Below are positions 23,036 to 47,864 of a DNA stretch of 64,000 bases, in pieces. The position numbers and the translations under genes were made by a program. Origin of the DNA: Tropicimonas marinistellae (lineage in GTDB: Bacteria; Pseudomonadota; Alphaproteobacteria; Rhodobacterales; Rhodobacteraceae); contig NZ_LNCI01000014.1 of NCBI RefSeq assembly GCF_001509585.1, positions 1 to 64,000 on the forward strand, read 5' to 3'. Within the stretch, counting starts at the first letter, position 1. The number at the start of each line of letters is the position of its first letter. Below the pieces are notes generated by a model. The model worked only from the letters and a program-made list of their open reading frames with translations, did no database searches and was not told the DNA's origin.

Positions 23036-23356
23036 CTACTTCGGTCGGGAAATTGTCAGTCCATTGATGTCCTTGCTCACTTTGAGTTGGCAAGACAATC
23101 GCGAGGAGCGGCTCAGGTTGAATGCGACATCCAGCATGTCCTCTTCCTCCTCGCTTGGCGCTTCGAAGGCGGCCTCGAACGCCGCATCGACCCAGACGTG
23201 ACATGTGGCACAAGCCAACGACCCACCGCATTCGCCGTCGAGAAGCCCCGCTGTCCGTAGGACTTCCATGACCGACAGACCCGGCTCTGACAGGAGGTGG
23301 TGGCGCGTATTGTCGGCATCAACAAACGTGATGGAAATGGCGGCATCTGACGTCAT
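23036..23356 (-). CDS. 2Fe-2S ferredoxin, adrenodoxin type
   Basis: A 106-residue ferredoxin. Ligands C43, C49, C52 and C89 fit the C-x5-C-x2-C...C spacing of the adrenodoxin/FdxB type. The acidic helix (EEEED near 69-73) is a typical partner-docking surface. It is the last gene of the 11-gene minus-strand cluster and overlaps the amidase gene by 4 bases. The flavoprotein at 26929-27969 is a plausible reductase for it and the molybdopterin enzyme a plausible partner; both are inferences from position. Confidence 0.88.
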   Translation of the reverse strand: MTSDAAISITFVDADNTRHHLLSEPGLSVMEVLRTAGLLDGECGGSLACATCHVWVDAAFEAAFEAPSEEEEDMLDVAFNLSRSSRLSCQLKVSKDINGLTISRPK

Positions 23357-24789
23357 GTTCGTGCCTCGGCAAGCATCTTTGGACGTCGTCCAACCAGGTC
23401 GAGGCGTTGCTCCACCGCGCTGCCCAAGCGAAGCAACGTTTCCTCGCCGCCCCTGCGAGCGGCAAGCTGCACACCAAGCGGCAATCCGTCGTCATCAAAC
23501 CCGGCAGGCACGGCCAGCGCCGGCTGGCCGGTCATGTTGAAGATGTAGCAGTAAGGGCACCAGGACCAGTCATCGGGGACCTCTCCCGCAGGCGCTTCGC
23601 GATCTATGTCGAATGCCGGCCCTATGACCGATGGACAAATCACCGCGTCGTATTCGGTAAGAAATGCGTGACTGGCCGCCGTGATTGCCAGCCGCTCGTC
23701 AAGCGCATTGAGATACGTCTCAACCCCAAGTTCCCGTCCCGCTTCGGCAAGGTCGCGAATAAGCGGAGAAACCAGGGCCGCATGTTCCGGCGGGGCGGCG
23801 AAGTACGAACTGACATACCCGGTCTTCCAGAAGATCGAGAAAGGCCTTTCGGGTGGCACTGGCCAACAAGGCGAAGCCGGTTCGACGATGGCCCCGTGCG
23901 CCTCAAGCGCAGTGGCGACGGCATCAAGCGCACGTAGGATCTCAGGCGAGGGCGTCCGGCCCGTTCCCATGTCGGGCGAGACCGCGATCCTCATGCCCGC
24001 AACCGGACCCTGTGCGGCCGACGGCTCGAACGGGACAGGCCATGAAAATGGATCAAGCGGCTCATGGCCGGCCATTGTCGCGATGAACGGCACCAGATCT
24101 TTCACACGCCGGGCCATCGGCCCCGTAACCGAATGCGGCATGTCTGCATCCGGCGGCATGAACGGAACACGACCGAAGCCCGGTTTGAGCCCCGCAAGAT
24201 TGCAGAAGGCCGACGGTATACGGATTGATCCTGCACCGTCGGAACCCGTTGCAAGCGTGCCCATGCCCAATGCGAGCGCAGCCGAAGCGCCGCCGCTCGA
24301 GCCACCTGGCGTCCGGCCCGGATCGTAGGGATTGCGGGTGACGCCATGCACGGCGCTCCGTGTCACGACGCGCGATCCGGCCTCGGGTGTCGCGGTCTTG
24401 CCGAGAAAAACCACCCCGACCTCGCGCAGGCGTTTCACGGGCGGCGCGTCCTCGGACGCGACTGCATCGGTGCCAATCGCCGCAGATCCGCGCCGGCAGG
24501 ACCAACCGGAGAGCTTCGTCAGGTCCTTTACGGACACGGGGATGCCGTCGAGCGGACCAAGCGGCCCTCCCGATGCGTAACGCCGCGCCGAGGCCTCGGC
24601 CATCGCGCGGCTTGTTGCGCGATCCTGATAGACGAAGGCGTTGACACGGGGATCGAAAGCATCGATCCGTGCGAAACTGGCTTCCAGCGCATCGACCGGC
24701 GAGAACTGACCGGCGCGGAACCCGGCCCCGAGATCCGCAACCGAAAGATCGGCGAGGTCTCCGTGCAGATGATCGACGAGTCCGTCCAT
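23353..24789 (-). CDS. Amidase-signature-family hydrolase
   Basis: A 478-residue amidase-signature enzyme with the Ser-cisSer-Lys triad: K88 (PVSVKDL), S164 in the Gly/Ser-rich GGSSGG box and S188 (DGAGSIRIP). It would hydrolyse a C-N amide bond in the cytoplasm. It has no GatB neighbour, so it is not the GatA tRNA amidotransferase subunit. It overlaps the GS-like gene by one base (TGATG) and the ferredoxin gene by 4 bases. A role in releasing ammonia from a glutamylated or amide intermediate is inference. Confidence 0.88.
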   Translation of the reverse strand: MDGLVDHLHGDLADLSVADLGAGFRAGQFSPVDALEASFARIDAFDPRVNAFVYQDRATSRAMAEASARRYASGGPLGPLDGIPVSVKDLTKLSGWSCRRGSAAIGTDAVASEDAPPVKRLREVGVVFLGKTATPEAGSRVVTRSAVHGVTRNPYDPGRTPGGSSGGASAALALGMGTLATGSDGAGSIRIPSAFCNLAGLKPGFGRVPFMPPDADMPHSVTGPMARRVKDLVPFIATMAGHEPLDPFSWPVPFEPSAAQGPVAGMRIAVSPDMGTGRTPSPEILRALDAVATALEAHGAIVEPASPCWPVPPERPFSIFWKTGYVSSYFAAPPEHAALVSPLIRDLAEAGRELGVETYLNALDERLAITAASHAFLTEYDAVICPSVIGPAFDIDREAPAGEVPDDWSWCPYCYIFNMTGQPALAVPAGFDDDGLPLGVQLAARRGGEETLLRLGSAVEQRLDLVGRRPKMLAEART

Positions 24790-26168
24790 CAGTAGAGATC
24801 GAAGTATTCGGCCGTTTCCGCAGCCGGGATCTCGTCCCGCAAACGCGCCGTCTCCTGCCATTTCATCTTGAGATAAACCTGGATGAACTCCTCGCCGAGG
24901 TACTCCCGCAGGGCAATATCGGCATCGAGTGCCTCTAACGCATCCTCGATCGACGTCGGGAGCTTCTCGAAACGGTCGTCATCTTCCTTCGGTCCGGAGG
25001 CGGCCGGGCTGAGTTCGCTGCCCTGGATCACGCCAAGCAAACCCGAGGCAAGCACAGAGGCCGCAAGCAGGTACGGGTTCGCCATTGCCGACGGCACCCG
25101 AACCTCCAGGTGCGTCGCCTCGTCCATACTGGCCTTGACCCGCACACTGGCAGACCGGTCCTGGATGCCCCAGGAGATATTGGAGGGTGCATAGGTGCGC
25201 GGGCGGATCCGCCGGTAACAGTTCGGTGTCGGATTCCAGATCGCCATCGCCGCGCGGGTATGCTCCAGGATGCCTTGAATGAAGGAGCGCATCAGTGCGG
25301 AAAGCCCGTCTTCCATTTCCGGATCGAAGAAGGCGTTCCTTCCGGTGTTCTTGTCGATCAGCGAGACATGAAAATGCGAGCAGCTACCGGACCGGCCCTT
25401 GTACGGCTTGGTCATGAAGGTGCCGTGAAGGCCGTGGAGCGGCAAGAACTCCTTCACTGTTCCCTTGAACACGAAGGCGCGGTCAGCCGCGGCCACGCCG
25501 TCCATCGCGTCGTAGTTGATCTCGATCTGACCGGGTCCGTGCTCGACATTGTATGTGATAATGTCGATACCCTGCTGCTGGAGCGTGCGGACCAATCCGT
25601 CGATGGCCGGATTCTGGTGCGTGCGCGCGGTGACGAAAATCGGCTGGTCCGGGAAGAACGGCTCACCGCTTTCCTTATCGACGGCGTAAAACTCGTACTC
25701 GTGCCCCATCTTGACGGTGAAGCCGAGCGCATCGGCCTTGGCCAGCATCTTCTTCAGGAGCATCCGGGGGGCGGCCCATTGTGGCGTTCCGTCGTACCAC
25801 ATGGTGTCACAGATCACGCGCCCGGTCTTTTCCAGCCACGGCACAGGCGTCAACGTCTCGACGTCCGGGATCATAACCGCGTCGCTGTAGTTGCGCTCCT
25901 CGTTGTAGCCAGACCCGCGTACCGGGATGGAATAGCTGTCGAGTGCAACCGTGCCGCCGTAGAGGTTCAAACCCTTTCGCATGTAGCCGGCGATATGGTC
26001 GATAGGGATCGTCTTGCCGCGCGAGAGCCCCGCCATATCGGCAAATTCGAAGCGCAGGAACTCGAAGCCTGACGCACGGACCTGTTCGACGAAGGCGTCC
26101 GCGTCTTCACGGGTGAACAGCGCCAGTTCGGGGAGCGCTTCTGCAGATTCCTGGAGTGTGTCGGGCAT
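24789..26168 (-). CDS. Glutamine-synthetase-family ligase (gamma-glutamyl-amine ligase-like)
   Basis: A 459-residue GS-fold enzyme, not the housekeeping GlnA: the Tyr-adenylylation region is missing and the active-site segments differ. Seen in order are GHEYEFYAVD (metal Glu), GQIEINYDAMDG, the CSHFHVSL stretch in place of the GlnA HxHxS segment, and LEVRVPSAMANPYL. Family members such as PuuA and GlnT-like enzymes glutamylate amines with ATP, and this one probably does the same to an unknown amine. ATG 26168 follows AGAGGATAG. Flanked by an amidase and a glutamine amidotransferase gene. Confidence 0.88.
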   Translation of the reverse strand: MPDTLQESAEALPELALFTREDADAFVEQVRASGFEFLRFEFADMAGLSRGKTIPIDHIAGYMRKGLNLYGGTVALDSYSIPVRGSGYNEERNYSDAVMIPDVETLTPVPWLEKTGRVICDTMWYDGTPQWAAPRMLLKKMLAKADALGFTVKMGHEYEFYAVDKESGEPFFPDQPIFVTARTHQNPAIDGLVRTLQQQGIDIITYNVEHGPGQIEINYDAMDGVAAADRAFVFKGTVKEFLPLHGLHGTFMTKPYKGRSGSCSHFHVSLIDKNTGRNAFFDPEMEDGLSALMRSFIQGILEHTRAAMAIWNPTPNCYRRIRPRTYAPSNISWGIQDRSASVRVKASMDEATHLEVRVPSAMANPYLLAASVLASGLLGVIQGSELSPAASGPKEDDDRFEKLPTSIEDALEALDADIALREYLGEEFIQVYLKMKWQETARLRDEIPAAETAEYFDLY

Positions 26169-26186
26169 TACTCTATCCTCTTGGGC

Positions 26187-26918
26187 TCAGGCGGTTTCGA
26201 TCCGCCGGGTGACGATCGACATGAAGCGCGCATTCAGCCTTCCGGCGGCGGCTTCGAAGCTGGGGAGTTCGGCATGAACCTCCTGTTCGAGCCTGGCGCC
26301 GCCTCCTTCTCCAAAGATCTCGGCCAGCGACGCGGCGTATTCGGGAAGAGCGCGCCACTCGGGCACTGTTCTCTCCGTCAACTCGACATGGAACTGCAGT
26401 CCATAGGCACTGCTCCCATAGCGGAATGCCTGCACCGCACATGCCTGATTGCGCGCCAGAATCTCCGAATTTGGCGGCAGTTCGGTAACTTCGGCGCTGT
26501 GCCATTGAAAACACTGCATCTGAGGGCCAGCGGGGCCAAGCAGTGGGTCCGCCATCCCCGCGTCGGTTAGCTCGACCGTCCCGAAGCCCACCTCCGAAAC
26601 CGCCCCGGCCGCGACCTTGCCACCGATGGCCTCTGCAAGGATCTGGTGGCCGAGGCAGATGCCCAGATAGGGTCGCTTCAGGTCCAGAACCCAGCGTCTT
26701 ACCGCATCCTTTTCAGCGACGAGCCAGGGGTGCAGGTCTTCCTGCCAGACATCCATCGGCCCGCCCATGACCACCAGCGCATCATAGGCGTCCAGTTCCG
26801 GTATGGGGTCGCCCGCGTCCAGCTCGATCTGATCGAACCGGACACCGTCCTCGCGCCAAAGAGGAAGAAAGGAGCCAGGGTGCTCTACCGGGACATGTTG
26901 AAAGACGAGAAATCGCAT
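26187..26918 (-). CDS. Class I glutamine amidotransferase-like protein
   Basis: A 243-residue GATase1 domain protein. Nucleophile C88 lies in GICLGHQ, with H177 and E179 in LQFHVEL completing the triad. It matches stand-alone GMP-synthase-type amidotransferase domains rather than PuuD. In this setting it may hydrolyse a gamma-glutamyl compound made by the neighbouring GS-like ligase, or supply ammonia; neither is proven. It sits 18 bases before the GS-like gene and 10 bases after the flavoprotein gene. Confidence 0.88.
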   Translation of the reverse strand: MRFLVFQHVPVEHPGSFLPLWREDGVRFDQIELDAGDPIPELDAYDALVVMGGPMDVWQEDLHPWLVAEKDAVRRWVLDLKRPYLGICLGHQILAEAIGGKVAAGAVSEVGFGTVELTDAGMADPLLGPAGPQMQCFQWHSAEVTELPPNSEILARNQACAVQAFRYGSSAYGLQFHVELTERTVPEWRALPEYAASLAEIFGEGGGARLEQEVHAELPSFEAAAGRLNARFMSIVTRRIETA

Positions 26919-26928
26919 CGGCCTACCT

Positions 26929-27969
26929 CTAATCCGTTACTGCTGTCTGAATTGGGTCTGCTCCGACGGGGGCGCCGCGGGACGTCGAATGCTCATGATG
27001 AAGCGCCTGACCCGGGAAGACGCGGCCGTAGGCGGCTTCCGCCGCGCTGGCGGCTTCGGCGAAACCGGTCAGGATGAGCTTGCGCTTGCCCGGGTAGGCG
27101 GCGAGGTCGCCGATGGCAAAAATTCCCGGGCGGGAGGTTTCGAAATGTGCCGGATCAACGCGGACGCACTTGCCCTCGAACTCGATGTTCCAACCCTGTA
27201 ACGCACTGAGATCGCTGGCCAGCCCGAAGAGCGGAATGAGTGCATCGGCTGGCAATACCTGACGGTTTCCCGCCATGTCGGCGATAACGACGCGATCCAG
27301 AACGGGCGCGGTGCCTTCGATACCCGCCAGTTGCCAACCGAGATGCAGCGCGATGCGCGGGTCCGTCGTCATCCGGACGACCTCGGCGGGAGCGGCCCGG
27401 AATCGGGCGCGCCGGTGCACGACCGCGACGCTTGCCGCCACATCGGCCAGCGAAAACGCCCAGTCGACCGCACTGTCGCCACCGCCGGCGATCACGACAT
27501 GACGTCCGGAAAAATCCTCCCGGCGCCTCACATGGTAGTGGACAGACGCGCCCTCAAAGGGCTCGATCCCCGCGAGCGGCGGACGGTTCGGTCCGAAAGC
27601 CCCCAGACCGGCGGCCAGGATCACCGCGCGGGCCGTGACGGTCCGGCCATCGCATAGCGTGACTCCGAAGCGTCCATCGGCCTCTGATACCCGTGTGGCG
27701 GATGTTCCCAGCAGGAACGTCGGACGATAGGGTGCGCCCTGCGCGATCAAGTCATCGATCAATTCGTCCGCGCGTACCCGTGGCCGGCCGGGAATGTCGT
27801 AGATGGGCTTCTCCGGGTAGAGCGCAACAAGCTGACCGCCGGGGTCGGGCAACGCATCTATCACCGCCGACCGCATACCGAGTTGACCGCAGGCAAAGAC
27901 GGAAAACAGCCCGGCAGGACCTGCGCCCACGATGGCGACATCGGTTTCGATATCTTCCCCAGCACTCAT
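26929..27969 (-). CDS. Ferredoxin-NAD(P) reductase-like flavoprotein
   Basis: A 346-residue two-dinucleotide-domain flavoprotein. The FAD motif GAGPAGL is near 15-21, the NAD(P) motif AGGGDSAVDWA is mid-protein, and FAIGDLAAYPGKRKLI is C-terminal. It lacks the thioredoxin-reductase CxxC, and the GGQLxxLYPEKxIYDIPG segment matches the TrxR-like ferredoxin-NADP reductase group (YumC type). It overlaps the molybdopterin gene by 4 bases. It would feed NAD(P)H electrons to the cluster's ferredoxin. Confidence 0.87.
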   Translation of the reverse strand: MSAGEDIETDVAIVGAGPAGLFSVFACGQLGMRSAVIDALPDPGGQLVALYPEKPIYDIPGRPRVRADELIDDLIAQGAPYRPTFLLGTSATRVSEADGRFGVTLCDGRTVTARAVILAAGLGAFGPNRPPLAGIEPFEGASVHYHVRRREDFSGRHVVIAGGGDSAVDWAFSLADVAASVAVVHRRARFRAAPAEVVRMTTDPRIALHLGWQLAGIEGTAPVLDRVVIADMAGNRQVLPADALIPLFGLASDLSALQGWNIEFEGKCVRVDPAHFETSRPGIFAIGDLAAYPGKRKLILTGFAEAASAAEAAYGRVFPGQALHHEHSTSRGAPVGADPIQTAVTD

Positions 27970-30005
27970 TCCGCAGCATCCACCCGCCGGATCGAGACCT
28001 CGATATTGTGGACGGCCGTGGCCTCGGCGATGTCGCTTTTCCGGCCGGCGTGAAGGACATTGACGTTCGCGCCACTGGCCTCCTGTCTCGGCCACCGCCC
28101 TTTGTAGACAATCCCGACACCGGGCTGGGCGATATCGCTGAGCGAAACCCGCAGCGCGAGTTCTCCCGCCGAATTGGCCAGCACGACCGGGTCGCCATCT
28201 GATAGCCCGCGCCGCGCGGCTTCATCCGGGTGCAGCAACACCGAATTGGGGCCGATCTTGGCAACGACACCCGGATCGTTGGCGTAGCTTGCGTTCATCT
28301 GCCAGGCTGAAGCAGGGGAAAGGATGCGTAGCATCCCCTGATCCGACGGCACGTCCGCGTGCGGCTCCGGCACGGCCGGCAACCCTGCTTCTATGGCCGC
28401 CTCCGAGTAGAGTTCAATCTTGCCCGATGGTGTCGGGAAGACAAGGTCCTCGAATTGCCGGCGCGGTTCGGAAAAGAGTTGGACGGTACCTGCTTGGGCA
28501 AGTGAGGCGAAATCGCCGTCAAAGGGCGTCATCGCGAGAATTCGCTCCAGCAGGGTGACGTCCGGTTCGAACAGCTGCGGATCCGACAAGCCTGCCGCGC
28601 TTGCAAGGCGGCGGAAGATTTCCTGGTTGGGCAAGGCCTCACCCGGCGCCTCCATGACCGCGACCTGGGCCGAAAGCGTGTGATGGAAATACGGCGCGAC
28701 GATATCGTCGAATTCGAGGAACGAGGCCGCCGGCAGAATGATATCGGCGAAGTCTGCGGTATCGGTGGGAAAGATATCGCAGACGACCGTGAAAAGGTCC
28801 TCTCGCGCCATCGCGCCGCGCAGACGCGCCTGATCGGGCGACGACGCGAGCGGATTGCAGTTCCAGGCAAAGAAGATCTGGGCCATCGACGGGTCGGCGA
28901 GAGTCGCCGCCAAGTCCATGTGGCTCACCGACTTGCACCCGATATCGAGCGCGGGCGGTGTCAACAGATCCATGTCAATTCCGCGGCTCCCCGGCCCGTT
29001 CATGTAACAGAAGCCGGCGCCGGGTTTGCCGAGGTTTCCGGTGAGCGCCACCAACGCTGAGAGTGCCCGGAATGCATTGCCGCCGCGGGCGGTGCGCTGC
29101 ATGCCCTGCCCCATCCAGAGCAGCGACGGCCCTTCGGCATAGGCGGTTCCGACCTTCACGATCAGATCCGCGGGAACGCCTGTTCGCGCCGACGTGGTCT
29201 CAGGATCGGCCGCCTCGATGTCCGGCAGCAACGCCTCGAAGCCGCGGACATGGGCAGCGATGAAGTCCTCGTCCAGCAATCCCTTATTCAGTGCAACATG
29301 CATCAGCCCAAAAGCCAGCGCCGCGTCCGTTCCGGGACGGGGCTGCAGATGGAGGGCCGCGCGTTCCCGCGCGGTTCCGTGCGCCACCGGGTCGATGGCG
29401 ACAATCGTGGCGTCCGTTTCCCTCAACCAGTTCTTGTGCATATGCGGCGCCGTGTGGCTGGGATTGGCCCCCCAGACGAGAATTGTCTTCGCGTCCTTCA
29501 CGGATTCCGGATCGAACCCTTCGAGGCTGTCGCCGAAAGTCATCTCCAGCGCGACGTGCCCCGCCTTGTTGCACACTGTGTCCGGGTCGACCTCGGTTGC
29601 ACCGATAGCCTGAAAGAACCGAAGCGGATACCAGCCCGCGATCAGCCCAACGGTTCCGGTGTAATGGGCATGGACCACCTGTCTGGCGGGTCTCCCGCCA
29701 ATGTGCGGAGCAAGTTTCCCTGCAATCTCGGCAAGCGCCTCGTCCCACGAGATCGGTGTGAATTTCCCGCTCCCCTTGGGTCCACTGCGGCGCATCGGCC
29801 GGGTCAAACGCGCAGCCGCGTCGCGCCAGACACCATTATAGGCAATTGCGCATTTCCCGCAGAGCGCACCGCGCGCAACGTGGTGCTCGGGGTCGCCGAG
29901 GATTTTCCGCACAACGCCGTTGTCGCGCACCGCCACCATTCCGCAGGCATCGTAGCAATCCCGCGGACATGTCGTTTTGAGTCTCTCCCGGATGGCCTCG
30001 GCCAT
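27966..30005 (-). CDS. Cytoplasmic molybdopterin oxidoreductase (DMSO-reductase superfamily)
   Basis: A 679-residue molybdo-bis-MGD enzyme. The N-terminal 4Fe-4S ligands are C13, C17, C21 and C49 (CPRDC, DACG, ALCGKC). A candidate Mo-ligand Cys lies in DTVCNKAG, and cofactor segments VWGANPSHTAPH and the C-terminal dinucleotide-binding domain (about 560-670) follow. There is no twin-arginine signal, so it works in the cytoplasm. ATG 30005 has GGAGG 6 bases upstream, and the frame runs open further upstream. It is the catalytic core of the cluster, but its substrate cannot be read from sequence. It does not look like formate dehydrogenase or nitrate reductase. Confidence 0.9.
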   Translation of the reverse strand: MAEAIRERLKTTCPRDCYDACGMVAVRDNGVVRKILGDPEHHVARGALCGKCAIAYNGVWRDAAARLTRPMRRSGPKGSGKFTPISWDEALAEIAGKLAPHIGGRPARQVVHAHYTGTVGLIAGWYPLRFFQAIGATEVDPDTVCNKAGHVALEMTFGDSLEGFDPESVKDAKTILVWGANPSHTAPHMHKNWLRETDATIVAIDPVAHGTARERAALHLQPRPGTDAALAFGLMHVALNKGLLDEDFIAAHVRGFEALLPDIEAADPETTSARTGVPADLIVKVGTAYAEGPSLLWMGQGMQRTARGGNAFRALSALVALTGNLGKPGAGFCYMNGPGSRGIDMDLLTPPALDIGCKSVSHMDLAATLADPSMAQIFFAWNCNPLASSPDQARLRGAMAREDLFTVVCDIFPTDTADFADIILPAASFLEFDDIVAPYFHHTLSAQVAVMEAPGEALPNQEIFRRLASAAGLSDPQLFEPDVTLLERILAMTPFDGDFASLAQAGTVQLFSEPRRQFEDLVFPTPSGKIELYSEAAIEAGLPAVPEPHADVPSDQGMLRILSPASAWQMNASYANDPGVVAKIGPNSVLLHPDEAARRGLSDGDPVVLANSAGELALRVSLSDIAQPGVGIVYKGRWPRQEASGANVNVLHAGRKSDIAEATAVHNIEVSIRRVDAAE

Positions 30006-30022
30006 GTCCTGCCTCCGTATTG

Positions 30023-31129
30023 TCAGTTGGATTGGGGCCGGCCGAGCCGGACACCCGTATCGGCGTCGAAGCAGAGGCATTGGCCGATGTCGAATTCGAC
30101 GTTGACCGGTTGGCCCACTGCGAAAGCCTCGCTGTCATGTTCGGGGATCGTCGCGCGGAAGACGCCCTCGCCGGTATCGACCGACAGGGCTGCCCGCAGA
30201 CCAAGTGGCTCGCTGTCGAGCACAATTGCATTGCCCGGACCCGAGCCGGCCGACAGAACGCGAACGTTTTCCGGCCTCAATCCCGCATCGAAACGCGCGC
30301 ATGCGCCATTGAAAATCGTCTTGTGATTGTCGATTGCCGGCATCGTCTTGCCGGCAATGCGGATGTGGCCACCTTGGCCGGGATCATATTCCGCCGGACA
30401 GAGGTTTATCTCGGGCGCCCCGACGAACCGCGCGACGTCGCGATCGACGGGATTGTCATAGACCTCCTGCGGCGTACCGACCTGGCGGACACGCCCGTCA
30501 AGGAGGATCACGAGTCTATCCGCGACGGCCATTGCCTCGGTGAAATCCGGCGTCGCATAGAGAAAGCTCGCGCCACGCTCCCGTTGCAGGCGACGAAGTT
30601 CGGCGCGCAATTCGATGCGGAGTTGCGCGTCCAGACTGGAGAGCGGCTCGTCGAGAAGGAAGAATGCGGGGTTTCGAACCAGAGCGCGGCCGAGCGCAAT
30701 GCGCTGGCGTTCTCCGCCGCTCATCGTTTTAGGTGGCCGCCCGAGGATGTGCGGAACGTGCAGAGTCCGGGCAATGTCGTGAACCAGGTCCTCGATCGAA
30801 GCAGCGTCCATATTCCGGATTCGAAGGGGCGCCGCGATGTTCTCGAAGCCGGTTTTGTCGGGATAGAGCGCCAGGCTGTCGAAGATCATCGCGACATCGC
30901 GATCCCTGGGCTCCAGCGCCGTCGCCTCCTGGTTTCGGATCTCGATATGCCCCGCGTCCGGAACCTCGAGACCGGCGCAGATCCGAAGGAAGGTGGTTTT
31001 GCCCGCGCCCGCTGGCCCGAGCAAAGCCACGAACGCACCATCCTCAAGCGTGAGGTCGACGCCGTCGAGTGCCTGGGTCTTTCCGAACCGCCGGCGGATC
31101 CCGCGCGCATGCATTACCGGACCCTTCAT
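30023..31129 (-). CDS. ABC importer ATPase 2, degenerate Q- and H-loops
   Basis: A 368-residue ABC ATPase with a C-terminal MalK/UgpC-type regulatory domain. Walker A GPAGAGKT (38-45), signature MSGGE (136-140) and Walker B FFLLDEP are good. The Q-loop Gln is replaced by Asp (IFDS, D84) and the switch His by Pro (YATPDF, P194). It therefore likely pairs with the other ATPase in a heterodimer where one ATP site is impaired. It overlaps ATPase 1 by 4 bases and lies 17 bases before the molybdopterin gene, tying transporter and enzymes into one unit. Confidence 0.9.
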   Translation of the reverse strand: MKGPVMHARGIRRRFGKTQALDGVDLTLEDGAFVALLGPAGAGKTTFLRICAGLEVPDAGHIEIRNQEATALEPRDRDVAMIFDSLALYPDKTGFENIAAPLRIRNMDAASIEDLVHDIARTLHVPHILGRPPKTMSGGERQRIALGRALVRNPAFFLLDEPLSSLDAQLRIELRAELRRLQRERGASFLYATPDFTEAMAVADRLVILLDGRVRQVGTPQEVYDNPVDRDVARFVGAPEINLCPAEYDPGQGGHIRIAGKTMPAIDNHKTIFNGACARFDAGLRPENVRVLSAGSGPGNAIVLDSEPLGLRAALSVDTGEGVFRATIPEHDSEAFAVGQPVNVEFDIGQCLCFDADTGVRLGRPQSN

Positions 31130-32226
31130 GCCAGTGCCTCCGTGAGGTTTCTGTTGGTCTCTCCATCGAAGAAGGTGAGCCTGTTTTCGTTGAATGCGAT
31201 GCCGACGGTGTCGCCGTCCTGCGGACAGCCGTGGGACCGGGCCATCGCCGAAACGAAGTGATCGCCAATCGCAAGTGTCAGGATCGTCTCGGCGCCGCGC
31301 GGCTCCACTCCTACCACCCGCGCCGTTCCCTGGCTCACTTCGGGCGCGGCAAGGCGGATTGCATCGGGGCGAATGCCCAGAACCAGCTTTTCCCCACTCG
31401 CCACACGGCCCTCAGCGTCCTGCGCAGGCACTCGAAAGGCATCGGAAACGAACTCGCAACGCCCGTCGGTCACATCCAGCGAGCCGGGCAGGAGATTCAT
31501 CGGCGGTTCGCCGATGAAGCCTGCAACGAAGGTGTGCGAGGGTTTTTCATAAACGACCTCCGAGCGGTCGCATTGGCGCAGCTTGCCGTGGCTCATCACC
31601 GCGATACGGCGCGCCAGCGACAGCGCCTCGATCTGGTCGTGGGTGACATAGATGATGGTCAGCCCCGACTCTGCTTGCAGCCGGCGCAATTCGCGCCGCA
31701 TCGTGGCGCGCATCTCGGTCTCCAGATTGGAGAGCGGCTCGTCCAACAGCAACAACGCCGGGCGCGTTACCAGCGTGCGCCCGATGGCGACTCGCTGGAG
31801 TTGAGAGCCCCCCAAGGACGCCGCGCGCGCATCGAGCATGTCGGTCAGACCGAGCAGTTCCGCCACCTCCTCGACGCGCTCGCGGGTTTCGACCCTACCG
31901 ACCCCGCGCACCTCCAGGCCGAAGGCCAGGTTCCGGCGTACGCTTTGATGGGTGAAGACCGCGTAGTCCTGAAACACAAGGCCGACATTGCGCTTGCCCG
32001 CCGGTTGTTCGGTTGCCGAAACCCCGTCGATCAGGATCTCGCCACGGGTCGGGGTTTCGAGGCCGACGATCATGTTGAGCGTCGTGGATTTCCCGCAACC
32101 GGATGGGCCAAGGATAGCCAGCGTTTCACCGGCCTCGACCACAAGGTCGAGATCCTCGACCGCCACGACCTGACCGCCGTCATATTCCTTGCGCAGGGAA
32201 ACAAGTTCGAGCTTTGGGGCGGTCAT
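31126..32226 (-). CDS. ABC importer ATPase 1, altered signature motif
   Basis: A 366-residue UgpC/MalK-type ATPase. Walker A GPSGCGKST (40-48), Q-loop VFQDY (Q86), Walker B LLLLDEP and switch His VTHDQ (H196) are normal. The LSGGQ signature reads LGGSQ (138-142) and the D-loop reads NLET instead of NLDA. These changes are complementary to those in ATPase 2. Two different ATPases with two permeases and one binding protein is the layout of GlpSTPQV-type glycerol importers, but the substrate here is unknown. It overlaps both neighbours by 4 bases. Confidence 0.9.
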   Translation of the reverse strand: MTAPKLELVSLRKEYDGGQVVAVEDLDLVVEAGETLAILGPSGCGKSTTLNMIVGLETPTRGEILIDGVSATEQPAGKRNVGLVFQDYAVFTHQSVRRNLAFGLEVRGVGRVETRERVEEVAELLGLTDMLDARAASLGGSQLQRVAIGRTLVTRPALLLLDEPLSNLETEMRATMRRELRRLQAESGLTIIYVTHDQIEALSLARRIAVMSHGKLRQCDRSEVVYEKPSHTFVAGFIGEPPMNLLPGSLDVTDGRCEFVSDAFRVPAQDAEGRVASGEKLVLGIRPDAIRLAAPEVSQGTARVVGVEPRGAETILTLAIGDHFVSAMARSHGCPQDGDTVGIAFNENRLTFFDGETNRNLTEALA

Positions 32227-33083
32227 CGTTTCACGGCTCCGAAGGTCATGCCGCGGGCGAGGTGCTTTTGGATCAGGAAGCCGACGACGATGAGGGGGGC
32301 CATGGCGAGCACGGCAAGGGCAGCTTGCACGCCGTAGAGCGTGCCGGCAGTGGCGGTTACGTATTTCGCAAGCCGTACCGGGATGGTCTCGATGTTGGTG
32401 TAGGACAGCACGAGGGCGAAAAGGAACTCCGACCAGTTCAGGATGAAGATGAACAGCGTCGTGGCGAAGAGCCCGCCCTTGATCAACGGAAGGGTGACGG
32501 TCAGATGGGCCTGCAGCCGGCTCTTCCCGTCGATCATCGCCGCCTCCTCGACTTCGCGCGGGACCTCGTCGACGAAGCTCTTCAGCATCCAGGTGGCAAA
32601 GGGCAGCGTGATTGCCACGTAGATCGCGATCAACCCGAGATAGGTGTCGATGAGCTGGGTCGCGGAAAAGATGATCACGAAGGGCACGGCGATTGCGGCC
32701 GGGGGGAACATGCGGCCCGACAGGATCACGAGCGGCGTGAAGCGGTTGATCCTGGCGTAGCGAGCCAGCCCGATGGCGGCAAAGAACCCGATCGAAACCG
32801 AGATCAGCGTCGCCGTGACCGAGGCGAAAATCGAACCGCCGACGGCGGCGGTGGCACTCTCGCTGACGCCGCCGACGCCGTATTTCCCGATGGCTTCCGG
32901 GTCGAACAGGGTCCGGAAATTGATCAGCGTTGGTTCGGAGGGAACCCATACCGCGGGAGCTGCGTTCCAGTCGGTCGGCGGCTTGATCGCCGTCATGAGG
33001 ATCCAGAAGATCGGAAAGAGGGTGAGTGCCAGCGCGACAAGGAGAACGAGCGCCAAAAGCGGAGTGAGCGGGCGTTTTGGCAT
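32223..33083 (-). CDS. ABC importer permease 2 (MalG/UgpE type)
   Basis: A 286-residue inner-membrane permease with six helices. The EAA coupling loop reads VDEVPREVEEAAMIDGKSRLQ-, as in carbohydrate-type CUT1 permeases. It overlaps permease 1 by one base and ATPase 1 by 4 bases. It pairs with permease 1 to make the channel. Confidence 0.88.
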   Translation of the reverse strand: MPKRPLTPLLALVLLVALALTLFPIFWILMTAIKPPTDWNAAPAVWVPSEPTLINFRTLFDPEAIGKYGVGGVSESATAAVGGSIFASVTATLISVSIGFFAAIGLARYARINRFTPLVILSGRMFPPAAIAVPFVIIFSATQLIDTYLGLIAIYVAITLPFATWMLKSFVDEVPREVEEAAMIDGKSRLQAHLTVTLPLIKGGLFATTLFIFILNWSEFLFALVLSYTNIETIPVRLAKYVTATAGTLYGVQAALAVLAMAPLIVVGFLIQKHLARGMTFGAVKR

Positions 33084-34072
33084 CAGGACGACTTTCCGAG
33101 TAGCTGGTCGCGCACCGGCGCAAGCAGCATGTGGACCATGAGAAGCGTACCGATCAGGACGAGGAAGGCCGCTGCGGCGCCATAGGCCAGCTGGAAGTCC
33201 TGAAACGCGAGCTTGTAGATGTAGAGACTGATCGTTTCCGTCGACGTCGAGGGGCCGCCGCGGGTCAGCATGAAGACCTCGTCAAAGAGTTTGACGACTT
33301 CCATCGAGCGGATGACGAGCGCGACAATGATCACCGGTTTCAGCATGGGAAGAACGACGCGCCAGAAGATCTGTCGCGGGTTGGCGCCAAGGATCACCGC
33401 GGCCCGGATCGGATTTTCGGGAAGCGAATTCAGACCGGACAGCATGATCAGGAAGAAGAGCGGGGTCCAGTGCCAGACCTCGGTGATAATGACCGCCGTC
33501 CAGGCGAAGCCGGCGCTCCTGAACCACTCCGGCGCTGTCCCGAAGAGCAACATCAGGACCTGGTTGATCGGGCCGTTCGATTGGAACAGCATCCAGAACG
33601 TGTAACCAACGACCACGGGCATCACCATCATCGGGGTGAGCAGGGTCGAGAAGAGAACCGACTTCCCCTTGAACTCGCGCAGGAAGATCACCGCGAGGCC
33701 AAGGCCGATTGCAAGTTCCAGCGAGAGGCAGATCACCGTGAACGCCAGTGTCCTGAACACGGCTTCGATGAAGCGGGTGTCGTAGACGAGCAGTTCCTCG
33801 TAGTTGAACAGACCCTCGAAGGAGGCGTCGAAGAGAGAACCGCGGGTGGGCGACCACGTGGTGAAGCTCATCGCCAGCGCCACAAGAAGCGGTACGACGA
33901 GGACGAAGAGCGAAATAAGTTGGCCCGGCATCGCGAGATTGCGCGCGAAGCGCTTTCGGCGCCGCCCGGCTTCGCCGTGGCCAAGGACTGAATCTCGTGC
34001 CGGCGATAAAGGTGCCGCGGCAACGGCATGATCGCGCTCGGGCGTAAGGACTGAAACGGAATCCTGGGACAT
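33083..34072 (-). CDS. ABC importer permease 1 (MalF/UgpA type)
   Basis: A 329-residue permease with six helices and the EAA loop GLNSLPENPIRAAVILGANPR-. The first 45 residues are a polar cytoplasmic leader. ATG 34072 was chosen as the first Met with a GAGAG-type site before it; the frame is open upstream to 34120. It lies 78 bases after the binding-protein gene. Confidence 0.88.
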   Translation of the reverse strand: MSQDSVSVLTPERDHAVAAAPLSPARDSVLGHGEAGRRRKRFARNLAMPGQLISLFVLVVPLLVALAMSFTTWSPTRGSLFDASFEGLFNYEELLVYDTRFIEAVFRTLAFTVICLSLELAIGLGLAVIFLREFKGKSVLFSTLLTPMMVMPVVVGYTFWMLFQSNGPINQVLMLLFGTAPEWFRSAGFAWTAVIITEVWHWTPLFFLIMLSGLNSLPENPIRAAVILGANPRQIFWRVVLPMLKPVIIVALVIRSMEVVKLFDEVFMLTRGGPSTSTETISLYIYKLAFQDFQLAYGAAAAFLVLIGTLLMVHMLLAPVRDQLLGKSS

Positions 34073-34150
34073 CGCTCTCACTTGGCTGTGTCTCTGCTGG
34101 GGAGGAACCGGCCGCCGCATCGCTGCCGCGACCGGTCGGAACGTGTCGGG

Positions 34151-35710
34151 TCAGGACCAGCCGTCGGCGCCAGTGGCCTGCTTGATCGGATCCGCAAGGT
34201 TCTGTGCCAGTGACAACCAGGACTGCTTGACCTTGTCGCGGCCAACGCGGCGAGTGATCCTGTCAACGGCCCGGGCGGCATCGTCGAGCGCCTGCTTCGG
34301 TGACTTGTCCCCGGTCATCGCGGCGTGGATTTCCTTGTCGAGCGCATCCTGATACTCGAACCCGCCCGGCAGGCAGAAGTCCGGCACGGTGTTGACCATG
34401 TTGTCGTAGAGCGTCTCCAGATACTCCGGCGAGTAGGTTTCGATCAGCCGCGGGGTCGGCGATTTCATGTGATTGACGCGATAGGGGTCCGAATAGCCGC
34501 CCAGATAGGGAATGGCATCGGCGCCGATGGTGGGCGAGGTCATCCACTGCGCATAGGCATAGGCAAGCTCGGGATTGGCCGAGTATTTCGACACCGCATA
34601 GCCATAGCCCCAGCAGAAGAGGCCCGCATACAGCGTCTCGCCCGACTTGGTGACATCGGCGGGCATCACGGTCGCGGCGATATTGCCGGTGGTCGCGGGT
34701 CCGGTCGACGGCGCCTTGGAATATTTGAAGCCCGAGGGCCAGACGATGTTCATGAAGCCCTCGCCCCGGCCGAAGGCGTTGTAGTTCGATGACCAGGTGA
34801 AGGAGAAGGCATCTGGGTGCAGATAGGGGTTCACCGCCAGCATGTCCTCGATGGCGGCCAGGCCCTCGTCGCCATTGAAGGTCGGGTTCATGTCGCCGTC
34901 GAAATAGAGCATGCCCTTGGACATCAGCCGCTGCATGAACATCCACTTGACGTAGTAGCGCGAGCGGTATTCGAGGCTGCCGTAGAAGCCGTTCTCCGGA
35001 TCGTGGAAGAACGCGGCCATCTCGTGGTATTCTTTCCAGGTGTTCGGCGTGGAAACCTCACGACCGAACTTGTCGGCAAAGGCGACGGCCTTTTCGGCCA
35101 TCTTGTCCGAGCGGCAGAGCAACGTGATCTGATCGCCATCGTTCAGCAACCCTGCGACGCGGCCGTTATAGAGCTGGGCGTGGTGGCTCGCGGGGAAGAC
35201 AACGCCGTAATCGGGATTGAAGAGCTCGGGATTGTATGCCTCGACCCAGTCGGTGAGATCGAAGATCACGCCACTATCGATCCAGTCGGGATACGACATC
35301 GCGGTGGGCATCATCACGTCATAGCGACCGGTCTTGGCGACGGCCTCCTGCATGCCCTTGGTGTGAACCACCTCGTCGGGCTCCTCGATGAATTCGAGGG
35401 TGATGCCCAACTCGTTCTTCCACAGATCCGCATAGGGCGTCATGTTGCCGATCGATCCAGTGGGGATCAGCAGAGTCAGCGTTTTTTTCTCGGCCTTGGC
35501 GGCCATCTCCTTGGCGAGCGCCCAGGCCCGGTCCTCAGGCCCTTTGATTCCGGCCAGCGCCTCCTGCGCACTCAGCGGCGAGGAGGTGATGTAGTTCGCG
35601 ACGCTCGCGGTGGCACCGAGCGCCAGAAGCCGCCCGAGGAGCGCCCTCCGCGTCATTCCGCCTTCGTCAAAAATGACACAGGCCTCTTGGAGTCTGGATT
35701 GGTTCTTCAT
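34151..35710 (-). CDS. ABC importer extracellular solute-binding protein
   Basis: A 519-residue periplasmic binding protein of the UgpB-like type. The N-terminus has a polar leader, twin arginines (MTRRALLG, about 19-26) and a hydrophobic stretch ending in PLSAQ (about 50), so Tat export is likely. Conserved binding-protein features include YDVMMPTAMSYPDW and the late SPTIGADAI region. ATG 35710 has AAAGGGA upstream. First gene of the 11-gene cluster and divergent from the MocR regulator. Ligand unknown. Confidence 0.87.
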   Translation of the reverse strand: MKNQSRLQEACVIFDEGGMTRRALLGRLLALGATASVANYITSSPLSAQEALAGIKGPEDRAWALAKEMAAKAEKKTLTLLIPTGSIGNMTPYADLWKNELGITLEFIEEPDEVVHTKGMQEAVAKTGRYDVMMPTAMSYPDWIDSGVIFDLTDWVEAYNPELFNPDYGVVFPASHHAQLYNGRVAGLLNDGDQITLLCRSDKMAEKAVAFADKFGREVSTPNTWKEYHEMAAFFHDPENGFYGSLEYRSRYYVKWMFMQRLMSKGMLYFDGDMNPTFNGDEGLAAIEDMLAVNPYLHPDAFSFTWSSNYNAFGRGEGFMNIVWPSGFKYSKAPSTGPATTGNIAATVMPADVTKSGETLYAGLFCWGYGYAVSKYSANPELAYAYAQWMTSPTIGADAIPYLGGYSDPYRVNHMKSPTPRLIETYSPEYLETLYDNMVNTVPDFCLPGGFEYQDALDKEIHAAMTGDKSPKQALDDAARAVDRITRRVGRDKVKQSWLSLAQNLADPIKQATGADGWS

Positions 35711-35898: not shown

Positions 35899-37434
35899 AT
35901 GCCGAAAACCAATGCGAAGGGGCTGAGCCCGTCCGTCACGCTCGACCGAGATTCCCATCGGCCGCTGTACCTTCAGCTCGTCGACAGCCTGCGCGCGTCG
36001 GTTGAAAACGGAACCCTGGAGATGGGCACGCGCCTCGCCTCCACGCGCAAGCTGGCCAGCGATTGGGGCGTCTCTCGAAATACCGTCATTCAGACATTTA
36101 ATGTACTTATTTCAGATGGTTACATCACATCCCGCACGGGTGACGGCACCTATGTATCAGATGCCACTACGCCGCCAGGAACCGCGGCTCAGACGAACTC
36201 GGAAACGACCGCTAGCTATCCGTTCCGCGGCCTCTCGCGTCGCGGGCGGCGGCTGGTTGTCAAGCGTGCCATCGGTGTGCCGGAACGGCCGCTGCCTTTC
36301 ATGCCGGACGTGCCGGATTTGCGGGAGTTCCCGATGCGCTCATGGCTTCGGCTTTTGAACGAGGTATCGGGCGGACTGACCGGCAATGCGTTGGCGGTTG
36401 CATCAAGTATGGGCTATCTGCCGCTTAGGAAGGCAATTTCACATCACGTCTCGGTCACCCGCGGTCTCCCGTGCAGCGCTGATCAGGTTATCATCACGAC
36501 CGGTTCGACTCAGGGGCTCGATCTGGTGATCCGCCTGCTGACGGATCGCGGAGACCCCGTCTGGATGGAAGACCCTGGCTATGTGGGCACCCGTGCGGCG
36601 CTGGTTGCGAATGGCTGCAACCTGCAACCAGTACCTGTCGATGGCGATGGTCTCCACGTGGAGACAGCAATTGCGAACTGCCTTTCCCCCAAGCTCGTTG
36701 CTGTCTCGCCGGCCCGGCAATACCCGTTGGGCACAGTCCTATCGAAGGCCCGCCGCAAGCGCCTGCTTGACTTCGCCGAAAAGACAGGGGCCTGGATTCT
36801 GGAAGACGACTACGATTCCGAGGTCTATTACGACGGCCCACCGCCCAGGGCGCTCAGCACCGAGCGCGGGAACGATCGGATCGTCTTTCTCGGCACCTTT
36901 TCAAAGACGCTCGTACCCTCGCTTCGATTGGGATACCTCATCGTACCGCCCGATCTTGGCGAGCACTTTGCCAATGCGCGGGTGAATTCGCAGGGACACG
37001 CCCCTCTGCTTGAGCAGATGGTGCTCGCGGAAATGATGAACCGCGGCCTCTATGCAGCGCATGTGAGGCGCATGCGCGTGCTCTACCGAGAGCGGCAGAC
37101 GGCATTGGCGCAAGCATTGGCGGAGACCCTGGATTATCGGGTGCCGAAGCGAGAGCTTACGGCCGGTATGCATCTGGTCCTACCGCTCGTCCCATCGGTG
37201 TCGGATGCCGAGATCGCGCTGCAGTTGCTCGACAAGCGCGTCGTGACTCGGCCGTTGTCACCCTATTTCACCGGGTCTCCGGCGCAGCAGGGCCTGTTGT
37301 TGGGGTTCGCCGCCTTCAATCCCGAGTCGATTTGGGAGGCAACCAACCGACTGGCAGCACTTGGCCACCACATCTCCCGCGCGGGATCACACCTCGACCG
37401 AGTTACGCCACCAACGGGGCGACGCAATCCGTAA
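35899..37434 (+). CDS. MocR/GabR-family regulator with aminotransferase domain
   Basis: A 511-residue PLP-binding regulator: an N-terminal GntR winged helix (about 20-88, with LASTRKLASDWGVSRNTVIQTF) and a C-terminal class I aminotransferase-like domain (about 110-490). The PLP lysine is in GTFSKTLVPSLRLGY, and EDDYDSEVYYDG and the ARQYPLG segment are also conserved. Such proteins sense amines or PLP adducts, which supports an amine or amino-acid-like ligand for the divergent cluster. ATG 35899 has only a weak site. Confidence 0.92.
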   Translation: MPKTNAKGLSPSVTLDRDSHRPLYLQLVDSLRASVENGTLEMGTRLASTRKLASDWGVSRNTVIQTFNVLISDGYITSRTGDGTYVSDATTPPGTAAQTNSETTASYPFRGLSRRGRRLVVKRAIGVPERPLPFMPDVPDLREFPMRSWLRLLNEVSGGLTGNALAVASSMGYLPLRKAISHHVSVTRGLPCSADQVIITTGSTQGLDLVIRLLTDRGDPVWMEDPGYVGTRAALVANGCNLQPVPVDGDGLHVETAIANCLSPKLVAVSPARQYPLGTVLSKARRKRLLDFAEKTGAWILEDDYDSEVYYDGPPPRALSTERGNDRIVFLGTFSKTLVPSLRLGYLIVPPDLGEHFANARVNSQGHAPLLEQMVLAEMMNRGLYAAHVRRMRVLYRERQTALAQALAETLDYRVPKRELTAGMHLVLPLVPSVSDAEIALQLLDKRVVTRPLSPYFTGSPAQQGLLLGFAAFNPESIWEATNRLAALGHHISRAGSHLDRVTPPTGRRNP

Positions 37435-41600: not shown

Positions 41601-42002
41601 GTTCCCACCTTTGCCCTCGATCCGGTTCGCGCCGTCGCTGCCGGTCAGATAGTCGTCGAAGTTGGTGCCGATGAGGTTCTCGATACTCGCAAAGGTCTTG
41701 CTGCCGCCCAGGATGAACTGCGTAAACGTGGATGAGAGCGAGGCAGAAACAGAGCTACCCGCGGTCAGAAAACTGACCGTGTCCGAGCCCTTTCCGCCAT
41801 CGACCGTGTCGGTTCCTTCGCCCGGCAGAAGGATGTCGTTTCCCTCGCCGCCCAGCAGGGTATCGTTACCGGCACCGCCAAACAATTGGTCGTTGCCGCC
41901 AAGTCCACGGAGCGTGTCGTCGCCGTCCAGCCCCTTGAGAATGTCTTTGCCACCGGTTCCCTTGAGATTGTTCGCTCCGGCGTTTCCAGTTTTCGTAACC
42001 AT
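38607..42002 (-). CDS. Large RTX calcium-binding exoprotein with embedded VWA-like domain
   Basis: A 1131-residue acidic protein with no N-terminal signal, expected to leave by a type I secretion system. Residues 10-680 are RTX nonapeptide blocks (GGxGxDxLx) interleaved with six SIE-N-L-x-G modules. Residues about 715-900 form a von Willebrand A-like domain with a DxSxS metal site (LQDLSGSF) and AAVIFTDASYHE. RTX repeats resume at about 945-1020, and a C-terminal secretion-signal region follows (DRIADFSGAEGDRIDVS, ending FLSSTYFEL). No ABC/MFP exporter genes are in the window. GGGGGAA precedes the ATG. Adhesion or matrix binding is a guess from the VWA domain. Confidence 0.9.
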   Translation of the reverse strand: MVTKTGNAGANNLKGTGGKDILKGLDGDDTLRGLGGNDQLFGGAGNDTLLGGEGNDILLPGEGTDTVDGGKGSDTVSFLTAGSSVSASLSSTFTQFILGGSKTFASIENLIGTNFDDYLTGSDGANRIEGKGGNDTVYGYDGKDTILGNDGSDSLYGGAGNDVIRGGDGNDLISGDAGKNTLFGDGGNDTFRDSFDSSGMAYGGKGDDTFLATYGGTTFNGESGIDTLSFENAFSEVNATVNGRSVWGFGGSYSIRTNSIENLIGSNSNDTLKGNNGANTLDGADGDDNLLGRGGNDILIGGLGRNRLNGEGGTDAASYENATAKVFVSLSKGGFQNTRGAGNDRLTSIENLIGSAFSDELTGNGQMNTLIGGLGNDVLNGKGGRDMADYSDIGTGVTVDLGAKGKQQTGGAGRDQLISIERLGGTEFDDMLVGDGGRNDLFGRGGDDFLQGKAGDDLLNGGAGFDVASYAEIKTKLNLSLASSTAQKAGKAGKDKLVSIEGLEGGSANDSLKGDGGNNLLIGNNGNDTLSGGKGDDILRGGRGEDVLRGDAGSDTADYSDIGKAVTVRLSNTGFQNTGGGDRDKLISIENVTGGNGNDRLFGDKNGNILDGGRGDDSLVGGDGSDILIGGAGNDVLDAGAGKNERLIGGSGNDRYLLGTGKGSGIIEDSLGSRDVVDASKSRSAADINLATGKSSTSGGETLTLAAGGTSTLPLDLMFLQDLSGSFGDDITTVRTLVPRVVKAIKNVNPDSAYGVVGFVDKPISPFGGTTDYVYKLFTPITKSSSRIVESYAEMDILSGADGDEAQLEALFQTAARADGEVGFREGTQRAAVIFTDASYHEAGDGASAGITTPNDGDAVIEGDGTKEDYPSVEQLAKALNKSGIFPIFAVTDISTTTYENLVDELGYGGVVSLEADSSNIVKVIKDAATLATQTAIEDAIGSKFNDTILGSAIGNVIQGGAGNDEIRGRGDDDRLLGGTGNDDLYGDDGDDVLRGNAGKDLLVGGAGDDTLEGGNGGDTLRGGDDSDTFLYKSRSDSTVLTSGRDRIADFSGAEGDRIDVSAIDANTTVGGNQAFTYIGTSFFTGTAGQLRYELQGSDALVLADVNGDGTADFSVLLNDVTFLSSTYFEL

Positions 42003-45331: not shown

Positions 45332-45391
45332 TCCATTCCACCCAACTCCCGGCCCCGAGGCGGGCCGGGAGACGCGACACAGGTGCGCTCC

Positions 45392-46857: not shown

Positions 46858-46861
46858 GGGA

Positions 46862-47857: not shown

Positions 47858-47864
47858 GGCGAAA

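Follow-up and report, generated by a model that had tools for sequence, protein, structure and literature searches.

A putatively acquired operon of Tropicimonas marinistellae resembling glutamylation-dependent amine pathways, with a molybdoenzyme in the redox position

Glutamylation is a recurring means of making amines degradable. The Puu system pairs it with a flavin oxidase; in other known pairings the partner is a cytochrome P450 (Ipu) or a Rieske enzyme (Atd and Npa). As passages of PMC6776027 describe it, in the Ipu route the amine is imported and glutamylated, a P450 oxidises the glutamylated product, and an amidotransferase is postulated to hydrolyse it. Passages of PMC11335346 attribute to a GAT-like protein the hydrolysis of the glutamylated intermediate, which keeps its level low, with NpaA2 being dispensable for conversion. 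In the 64,000-nucleotide stretch of the Tropicimonas marinistellae contig NZ_LNCI01000014.1 analysed here (the window), eleven minus-strand open reading frames (ORFs; 23036-35710) make up an operon-like unit together with a divergent MocR gene. The unit appears to offer a further pairing, in which a glutamine synthetase (GS)-like ligase is accompanied by a molybdoenzyme and by a very conserved dedicated importer.

The gene set, its insertion site and its recurrence

In the order of transcription, the unit encodes a solute-binding protein (SBP), two permeases and two MalK-like ATPases of an ATP-binding cassette (ABC) importer, followed by a molybdopterin oxidoreductase (the molybdoenzyme), a Pyr_redox_2 flavoprotein (FNR hereafter), a class I glutamine amidotransferase (GATase), the GS-like ligase, an amidase and a Fer2 ferredoxin (Table 1). 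An original prediction, made from this DNA alone, had listed the same eleven genes and the divergent MocR; all of the ORFs are present, and Pfam agrees with the families it named. It had also described the genes as mostly overlapping by 1-4 bases, which is the case at six of the ten junctions, the other four being gaps of 10-30 bases. These counts take the FNR start at 27969, which gives an FNR/molybdoenzyme overlap of 4 bases. The SBP and MocR genes are separated by 188 bases.

The unit sits between nfeD (ends at 22927) and pyrF (starts at 37608). In six of eight congeners, with pyrF used as the anchor, stomatin, nfeD and pyrF are adjacent without the unit, and the nfeD-pyrF match spacing is 0.15-0.25 kb in four of them and 0.9 and 2.6 kb in the other two; for the remaining two congeners, pyrF alone was found in the examined stretch, without nfeD or stomatin. 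A search for the ligase and the SBP in the pyrF-anchored stretches of all eight found neither, and the best ligase matches in these congeners are 35% identical, so none of them carries the window ligase. The GC content of the unit (0.629) does not differ from that of its surroundings (0.626 and 0.639). Across 292 genomes of the order, 14 gave a molybdoenzyme match at E 1e-60, with an identity of 31-34% in every case but that of the window itself, the matches listed belonging to the same family. Taken together, the eleven genes and MocR look like a discrete, horizontally acquired block. Because its gene order recurs in distant genomes and the block is an insertion relative to six of the eight congeners, it is more than a chance assembly.

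The recurrence was followed in 28 loci (designated by L numbers) obtained by scanning genome contigs with the ligase as query, onto which all twelve proteins were then mapped; the set was enlarged by a Rhizobium plasmid (L082) and by the second half of a cluster split in a metagenome-assembled genome (MAG; L134). The importer cluster was found in 12 other genomes or records, with identical gene order throughout. The importer-plus-glutamylation unit is thus conserved well beyond close strains; confinement to close strains would have counted against the prediction. Co-occurrence of all eleven families in the same order, the check that it had proposed, held for the importer, the GATase, the ligase, the amidase and the order itself, and failed for the molybdoenzyme, which is present in five of the 12 only: a Rhodobacteraceae MAG (L084), two Roseibium (L086, L097), a MAG labelled beta proteobacterium (L089) and a Rhodobiaceae MAG whose cluster lies on two contigs (L134 and L088), the molybdoenzyme gene being cut at the contig end. 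The seven clusters without it come from the plasmid of Rhizobium sp. ACO-34A (L082), a Rhodopseudomonas MAG (L085), Ciceribacter (L087), Allorhizobium borbori (L090), a Kiloniellales MAG (L091), Bradyrhizobium (L092) and Paenirhodobacter enshiensis (L105). A hidden, unlinked molybdoenzyme gene serving these clusters was considered and rejected, since a search of six genomes at E 1e-50 (the L082 plasmid lying outside it) gave nothing more than 36% identical. With seven of the 12 importer-containing relatives lacking it in the cluster, the molybdoenzyme is placed outside the constant core, which appears to consist of the importer, the GATase, the ligase, the amidase and usually MocR, the redox part being exchangeable.

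MocR is divergent in 11 of the 12 importer clusters, though only part of it is visible in L086, L089 and L097, where it lies at the edge of the locus; in L091 a 31% identical relative runs in the same direction as the cluster. Identity to the window proteins in these clusters is 70-80% for the ligase, 51-65% for the ATPases, 51-64% for the GATase, 46-68% for the amidase and 40-58% for the ferredoxin. Three of the seven clusters without the molybdoenzyme (L082, L087, L090) retain a ferredoxin gene, each time followed by glyA; L091 has glyA on the opposite strand, and L092 has serA after the amidase gene. A FAD_binding_6 reductase and a Pyridox_ox_2 protein are also encoded beside the operon in L082 (17217-20198), L087, L090 and L105, as grouped by clustering with Pfam assignments from the L082 copies; L105 has this pair but not glyA among these neighbours.

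The other 17 of the 28 loci showed no importer, several of their contigs being short; at the thresholds of the mapping, 14 have the GATase-ligase pair and four the amidase. Five Acidocella loci (L098, L103, L106, L108, L110) have the order molybdoenzyme, GATase, ligase and then one conserved ORF, and no importer was seen in them, but the L098 stretch covers only 4.7 kb. The ORF that directly follows the ligase (L103:11376-12053, with equivalents in the other four) encodes about 225 residues with no Pfam family; it gives weak barrel-type matches alone, with a faint likeness to phosphate-binding barrels.

Table 1. Genes of the unit in the window. Starts corrected from the translations: amidase 24789, FNR 27969, molybdoenzyme 30005, ATPase 1 32226, SBP 35710.
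Feature	Coordinates	Strand	Evidence
[2Fe-2S] ferredoxin, adrenodoxin/ISC type	23036..23356	-	PF00111 E 6.7e-07; TIGR02007 59 bits, under its cut-off 132
Amidase-signature hydrolase	23353..24789	-	PF01425 E 8e-89; Lys/Ser/Ser triad in 17/17 rows
GS-like ligase, proposed gamma-glutamyl-amine synthetase	24789..26168	-	PF00120 E 4.5e-86; flap Tyr/Phe in 31/31 rows; own clade 100/100
Class I glutamine amidotransferase-like hydrolase	26187..26918	-	PF00117 E 6.2e-22; Cys/His/Glu triad in 27/27 rows
TrxR-like ferredoxin/NAD(P) flavoprotein (FNR)	26929..27969	-	PF07992 E 3.1e-25 (scan included a few additional N-terminal residues)
Molybdopterin oxidoreductase, read as cytoplasmic; one [4Fe-4S], Cys at metal-ligand position	27966..30005	-	PF00384/PF01568/PF04879
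ABC importer ATPase 2	30023..31129	-	PF00005, TOBE_2
ABC importer ATPase 1	31126..32226	-	PF00005, OB_MalK, TOBE_2
ABC importer permease 2	32223..33083	-	PF00528; 74-89% identity in 12 relatives
ABC importer permease 1	33083..34120	-	PF00528; 66-91% identity in 12 relatives
Solute-binding protein, probably Tat-exported	34151..35710	-	PF01547 E 1.5e-15
MocR-type regulator (GntR + aminotransferase fold), divergent	35899..37434	+	PF00392 + PF00155

Two neighbouring regions may be mentioned here. Adjoining pyrF, 38607-42002 encodes a 1131-residue protein with RTX calcium-binding repeats and an integrin-beta VWA domain, and at 44135-49792 there are genes of a branched-chain-type ABC importer followed by an alpha/beta hydrolase (some of these ORFs were scanned).

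Importer, molybdoenzyme and ligase

The importer was predicted to be of the CUT1 type, and Pfam confirms this call: there is a PF01547 SBP, a pair of BPD_transp_1 permeases and two different ATPases, with MalK-type architecture including TOBE. The SBP is 74-87% identical to that of the window in ten aligned relatives and the permeases 66-91% across the importer relatives, so the imported ligand is probably shared across the clusters. A pair of arginines near the SBP N-terminus, present in 11 of 11 aligned sequences, looks like a signal for twin-arginine translocation (Tat), by which the protein is probably exported. Guessing the ligand from a predicted SBP structure was abandoned, the model being unusable (mean predicted local distance difference test score, pLDDT, of 54). 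In MocR, the lysine that binds pyridoxal phosphate is kept in 16 of 17 rows, L084 being the one that differs.

More remote importers were also seen. On a Phaeobacter gallaeciensis plasmid (L112:3388-15364), an importer with a 42% identical SBP adjoins a glycine-betaine binding protein; a Rieske gene lies about 4 kb away and a hybrid-cluster oxidoreductase a few kb off. This neighbourhood gives a hint of a methylated-amine ligand. Four loci of one alphaproteobacterial family (L061, L062, L063, L066) have an importer relative with an SBP of 36-39% identity, which in L061 and L062 lies by a 28-29% identical relative of the molybdoenzyme and in L061, L062 and L063 by a divergent 2-oxoglutarate-Fe(II) oxygenase-like gene (Pfam assignment from the L062 copy only).

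The molybdoenzyme begins with MAEAIRERLKTTCPRDC, and as no signal peptide is visible there, we read it as cytoplasmic, in keeping with the original description. Its four cluster cysteines and the cysteine at the ligand position are conserved in 25 of 25 rows. The residue after the ligand cysteine is Asn in 24 of the 25, and by alignment to HDCR FdhF all 25 have Asn at the position of the formate dehydrogenase Arg. We take the diagnostic residues of formate dehydrogenases to be a His after the Cys/Sec ligand and the Arg of an RGQ motif; with both replaced, a formate dehydrogenase role is disfavoured.

A tree of 48 molybdoenzyme proteins (short search; support from the Shimodaira-Hasegawa-like approximate likelihood ratio test, SH-aLRT, only, without bootstrap; the L134 fragment left out) recovers a 25-row family (SH-aLRT 100) that contains one 11-row clade (SH-aLRT 99). 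This clade comprises the window, four importer relatives, five Acidocella and one Acidiphilium, and all eleven genes adjoin glutamylation genes. Ten of them precede the GATase-ligase pair, with the FNR between in four. The eleventh, from an Acidiphilium MAG (L133), is convergent with, and 32 bases from, a set matching class II GATase, FwdC-like, glutamate-synthase-like and type III GS models, an arrangement that we take to be MgsABC-GmaS. On the other side of this gene (L133:3660-13971) there are a MocR and an amino-acid-type permease; the MgsABC-GmaS-like set represents a second glutamylation system. Among the 14 other members of the family, a GS-like gene was found in one stretch only (L039), about 7.4 kb away, and the remaining 13 have none in stretches of 6.7-18 kb. 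Family members 52-55% identical and lacking the cluster occur in several alphaproteobacterial families (L040-L051, L067), where their neighbours look housekeeping or unrelated, mostly by eye from the translations. Within the clade, the molybdoenzyme and glutamylation genes appear to travel together.

Besides the window, the FNR was found within four of the 30 cluster stretches, all of them bearing the molybdoenzyme (L086, L088, L089, L097). The ferredoxin gives a clean match in the window and the same four; in L084 just a 52-residue piece matches and the Cys pattern was not found. The pattern was found in the stretches of seven of the 12 relatives.

For the ligase, positions are given in a GS numbering in which the flap Glu is 327 (two invariant positions are labelled E212/E220, their order being doubtful). 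Of nine glutamate and metal positions, eight are conserved throughout the 31 rows, and a single row departs at the ninth, R321. All 31 have Tyr or Phe at the flap position, where true GS shows GYEAP, and Glu is likewise absent at this position in NpaA1, IpuC, a GmaS-like protein and a putrescine-type paralogue. By the flap residue only, ordinary glutamine synthetase is disfavoured. The ligase had been assigned to the PuuA/GlnT type, an assignment that fell away: identity is 28-32% alike to IpuC, NpaA1, the GmaS-like protein and the paralogue in its own genome, and a PuuA identity is contradicted by the NCBIfam GGputSyn score of 255 against a cut-off of 650. In the GS tree, where very long branches lead to L083 and to the GmaS-like L122, the group of the window ligase is a well-supported clade of its own. 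The GATase and the amidase both retain their catalytic triads in every row (Table 1).

A proposed pathway and its rivals

The reading that we tentatively prefer, at somewhat under an even chance, is that the operon is catabolic, was acquired horizontally and follows the glutamylate-oxidise-hydrolyse scheme, with the molybdoenzyme in the oxidising step. MocR would induce the operon, and the importer would take up one specific compound that bears, or gives, an organic amine. The ligase would couple this amine to glutamate with ATP; the molybdoenzyme, together with the ferredoxin and the TrxR-like FNR, would carry out a redox step on the gamma-glutamylated amine, most likely oxidising it and passing the electrons to NAD(P); and the GATase and the amidase would split the amide bonds and return the glutamate. 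We infer the order of the reactions, the class of substrate and the redox direction. The sequence of import, glutamylation, molybdoenzyme-dependent oxidation and hydrolysis is favoured because the window fills the slots of the Ipu and Npa/Atd systems, with the molybdoenzyme, FNR and ferredoxin in the redox slot. Since the GAT-like protein is described in PMC11335346 as lowering the glutamylated intermediate and NpaA2 as dispensable, the window GATase may carry out the release step or serve as a safety valve, the amidase having the other role. In a more specific form that we regard as unlikely, though worth stating, the operon would serve oxygen-independent amine catabolism: the Cys-ligated cytoplasmic molybdoenzyme would oxidise or hydroxylate the gamma-glutamylated amine with water and pass electrons via the [2Fe-2S] ferredoxin and the FNR to NAD(P), replacing the P450 or Rieske enzyme.

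It should be pointed out that a number of findings weigh against this preferred reading. With seven of 12 importer clusters lacking it, the role of the molybdoenzyme may be peripheral, and its best NCBIfam model is formate dehydrogenase alpha, at 236 bits against a cut-off of 666. The frequency of its linkage to glutamylation genes, though not the monophyly of the linked copies, is inflated by selection, since it was a ligase query, or prior knowledge that a genome carried the ligase, that led to these loci. L084 has a molybdoenzyme and no FNR in the cluster, nor any in its genome at E 1e-40, while unlinked FNR relatives (43-52% identical) occur in four of seven genomes searched, two of which host clusters without the molybdoenzyme; the FNR therefore need not be specific to the cluster. 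By profile and by fold, the ligase is about as close to true GS as to NpaA1. Its predicted model (pLDDT 78) matches GS folds, in a search that fails to separate amine ligases from GS, and its nearest solved structure varies with the method: NpaA1 comes first by single sequence and fifth by profile, with true GS nearer, and the picture by fold is mixed. According to passages of PMC11335346, amine ligases have characteristically lost Asp 50' and the flap Glu, for which the number 357 is printed; we read this Glu357 as the flap residue numbered 327 above. All 31 rows have a Glu aligned with E357, so this mark is absent if the printed number is literal, and we rely on the flap position as numbered here instead. 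By alignment only, Asp stands at 50' in the window ligase, as it does in four amine-ligase-type proteins despite the reported loss.

The main rival, which we consider rather improbable, reverses the order: electrons would pass from NAD(P)H through the FNR and the ferredoxin to the molybdoenzyme, which would reduce an N-hydroxy, N-oxide or oxime compound to the amine before glutamylation and hydrolysis. An FNR and a ferredoxin beside a cytoplasmic Cys-type molybdoenzyme are what such a reductase needs, and the NCBIfam matches include nitrate and S/N-oxide reductases, all far under cut-off. Clusters without the molybdoenzyme could then import the already reduced amine, but the very similar SBPs of clusters with and without it argue for one ligand, and the known GoaS-GATase clusters oxidise after glutamylation.

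Quite unlikely, in our view, is a one-carbon function, with an N-methylated substrate and a molybdoenzyme that handles the released C1 unit. The glyA and serA genes near L082, L087, L090, L091 and L092 would suit it, as would the MgsABC-GmaS-like set abutting the Acidiphilium molybdoenzyme gene and the glycine-betaine binding protein and Rieske gene near the 42% SBP relative. It is opposed by the replacement with Asn of both residues that we take as diagnostic of formate dehydrogenase, and by the lack of any formaldehyde or tetrahydrofolate metabolism gene among the eleven of the window (Pfam). We give about as little credence to a mixed cassette, in which the importer, GATase, ligase and amidase make up the pathway and the molybdoenzyme-FNR pair is an unrelated passenger or an accessory detoxification. 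The wider molybdoenzyme family is indeed mostly unlinked to GS-like genes, but the linked copies form one clade and are placed before the GATase, directly or via the FNR, in both the importer and the Acidocella types of cluster.

Relation to described amine pathways

No description of this gene set was found among the titles and abstract openings returned by searches of the open-access PMC literature, which is weak evidence of absence. The original statement that no described pathway has this set survives to that extent; the scheme itself is close to the glutamylate-oxidise-hydrolyse order that passages of PMC6776027 and PMC11335346 give for Ipu and npa, and to this extent it is not new.

The likeness to the Ipu system for isopropylamine is in its composition, a single cluster combining a GS-like amine ligase and a class I GATase with a redox enzyme that has a ferredoxin and a ferredoxin reductase of its own; on pTC1 of Paenarthrobacter aurescens TC1, the genes for GATase, P450, ferredoxin, ferredoxin reductase and IpuC stand in a row. 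Unlike Ipu, whose oxidant is the cytochrome P450, the window has the molybdoenzyme; it also has an ABC importer and a MocR, neither of which appears in the 11 features that a possibly incomplete table gives for 13.4 kb of the Ipu region. IpuC and the window ligase are 32% identical, and the Ipu GATase has no BLAST match to that of the window at 1e-3. The aniline (AtdA1A2A3A4A5) and 1-naphthylamine (NpaA1-A5) systems share with the window a GS-like ligase adjoining a class I GATase-like protein, npaA1-A2 standing with Rieske genes in the npa cluster. NpaA1 is 31.7% identical to the window ligase and NpaA2 31.6% to its GATase over 152 residues. These systems differ in using a Rieske dioxygenase as oxidant, and no importer, amidase, molybdoenzyme or MocR is among the eight features listed for Npa, again in a possibly incomplete table. 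By Pfam, neither a P450 nor a Rieske oxygenase is among the eleven genes of the window, where the molybdoenzyme stands instead; because this defining oxygenase is absent, we set the operon apart from both Ipu and Atd.

Within the same genome, a putrescine-type paralogue (L117), which we take to be Puu-like, likewise has a GS-like ligase near a class I GATase-like protein. Its ligase is 28% identical to that of the window, and similar GS-GATase pairs occur in several congeners, which the window cluster does not. With the N-methylglutamate pathway the operon shares the glutamylation of an amine, and in Acidiphilium a molybdoenzyme relative and a MocR stand beside such genes. It differs in lacking Mgs genes, and its ligase is 31% identical to the Acidiphilium GmaS-like protein, which NCBIfam names a type III glutamate-ammonia ligase (the names MgsABC and GmaS being ours, presumed from the gene arrangement).

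An acquired operon with a molybdoenzyme and a dedicated importer would suggest a nitrogen compound that has gone unrecognised, and perhaps an oxygen-independent chemistry, and with an SBP so well conserved across families (74-87%), the question of the substrate is directly testable. From its sequence relations, the operon appears to be a variant of the known glutamylation-dependent amine pathways, with a molybdoenzyme in the redox slot that a P450 fills in Ipu and a Rieske enzyme in Atd and Npa.

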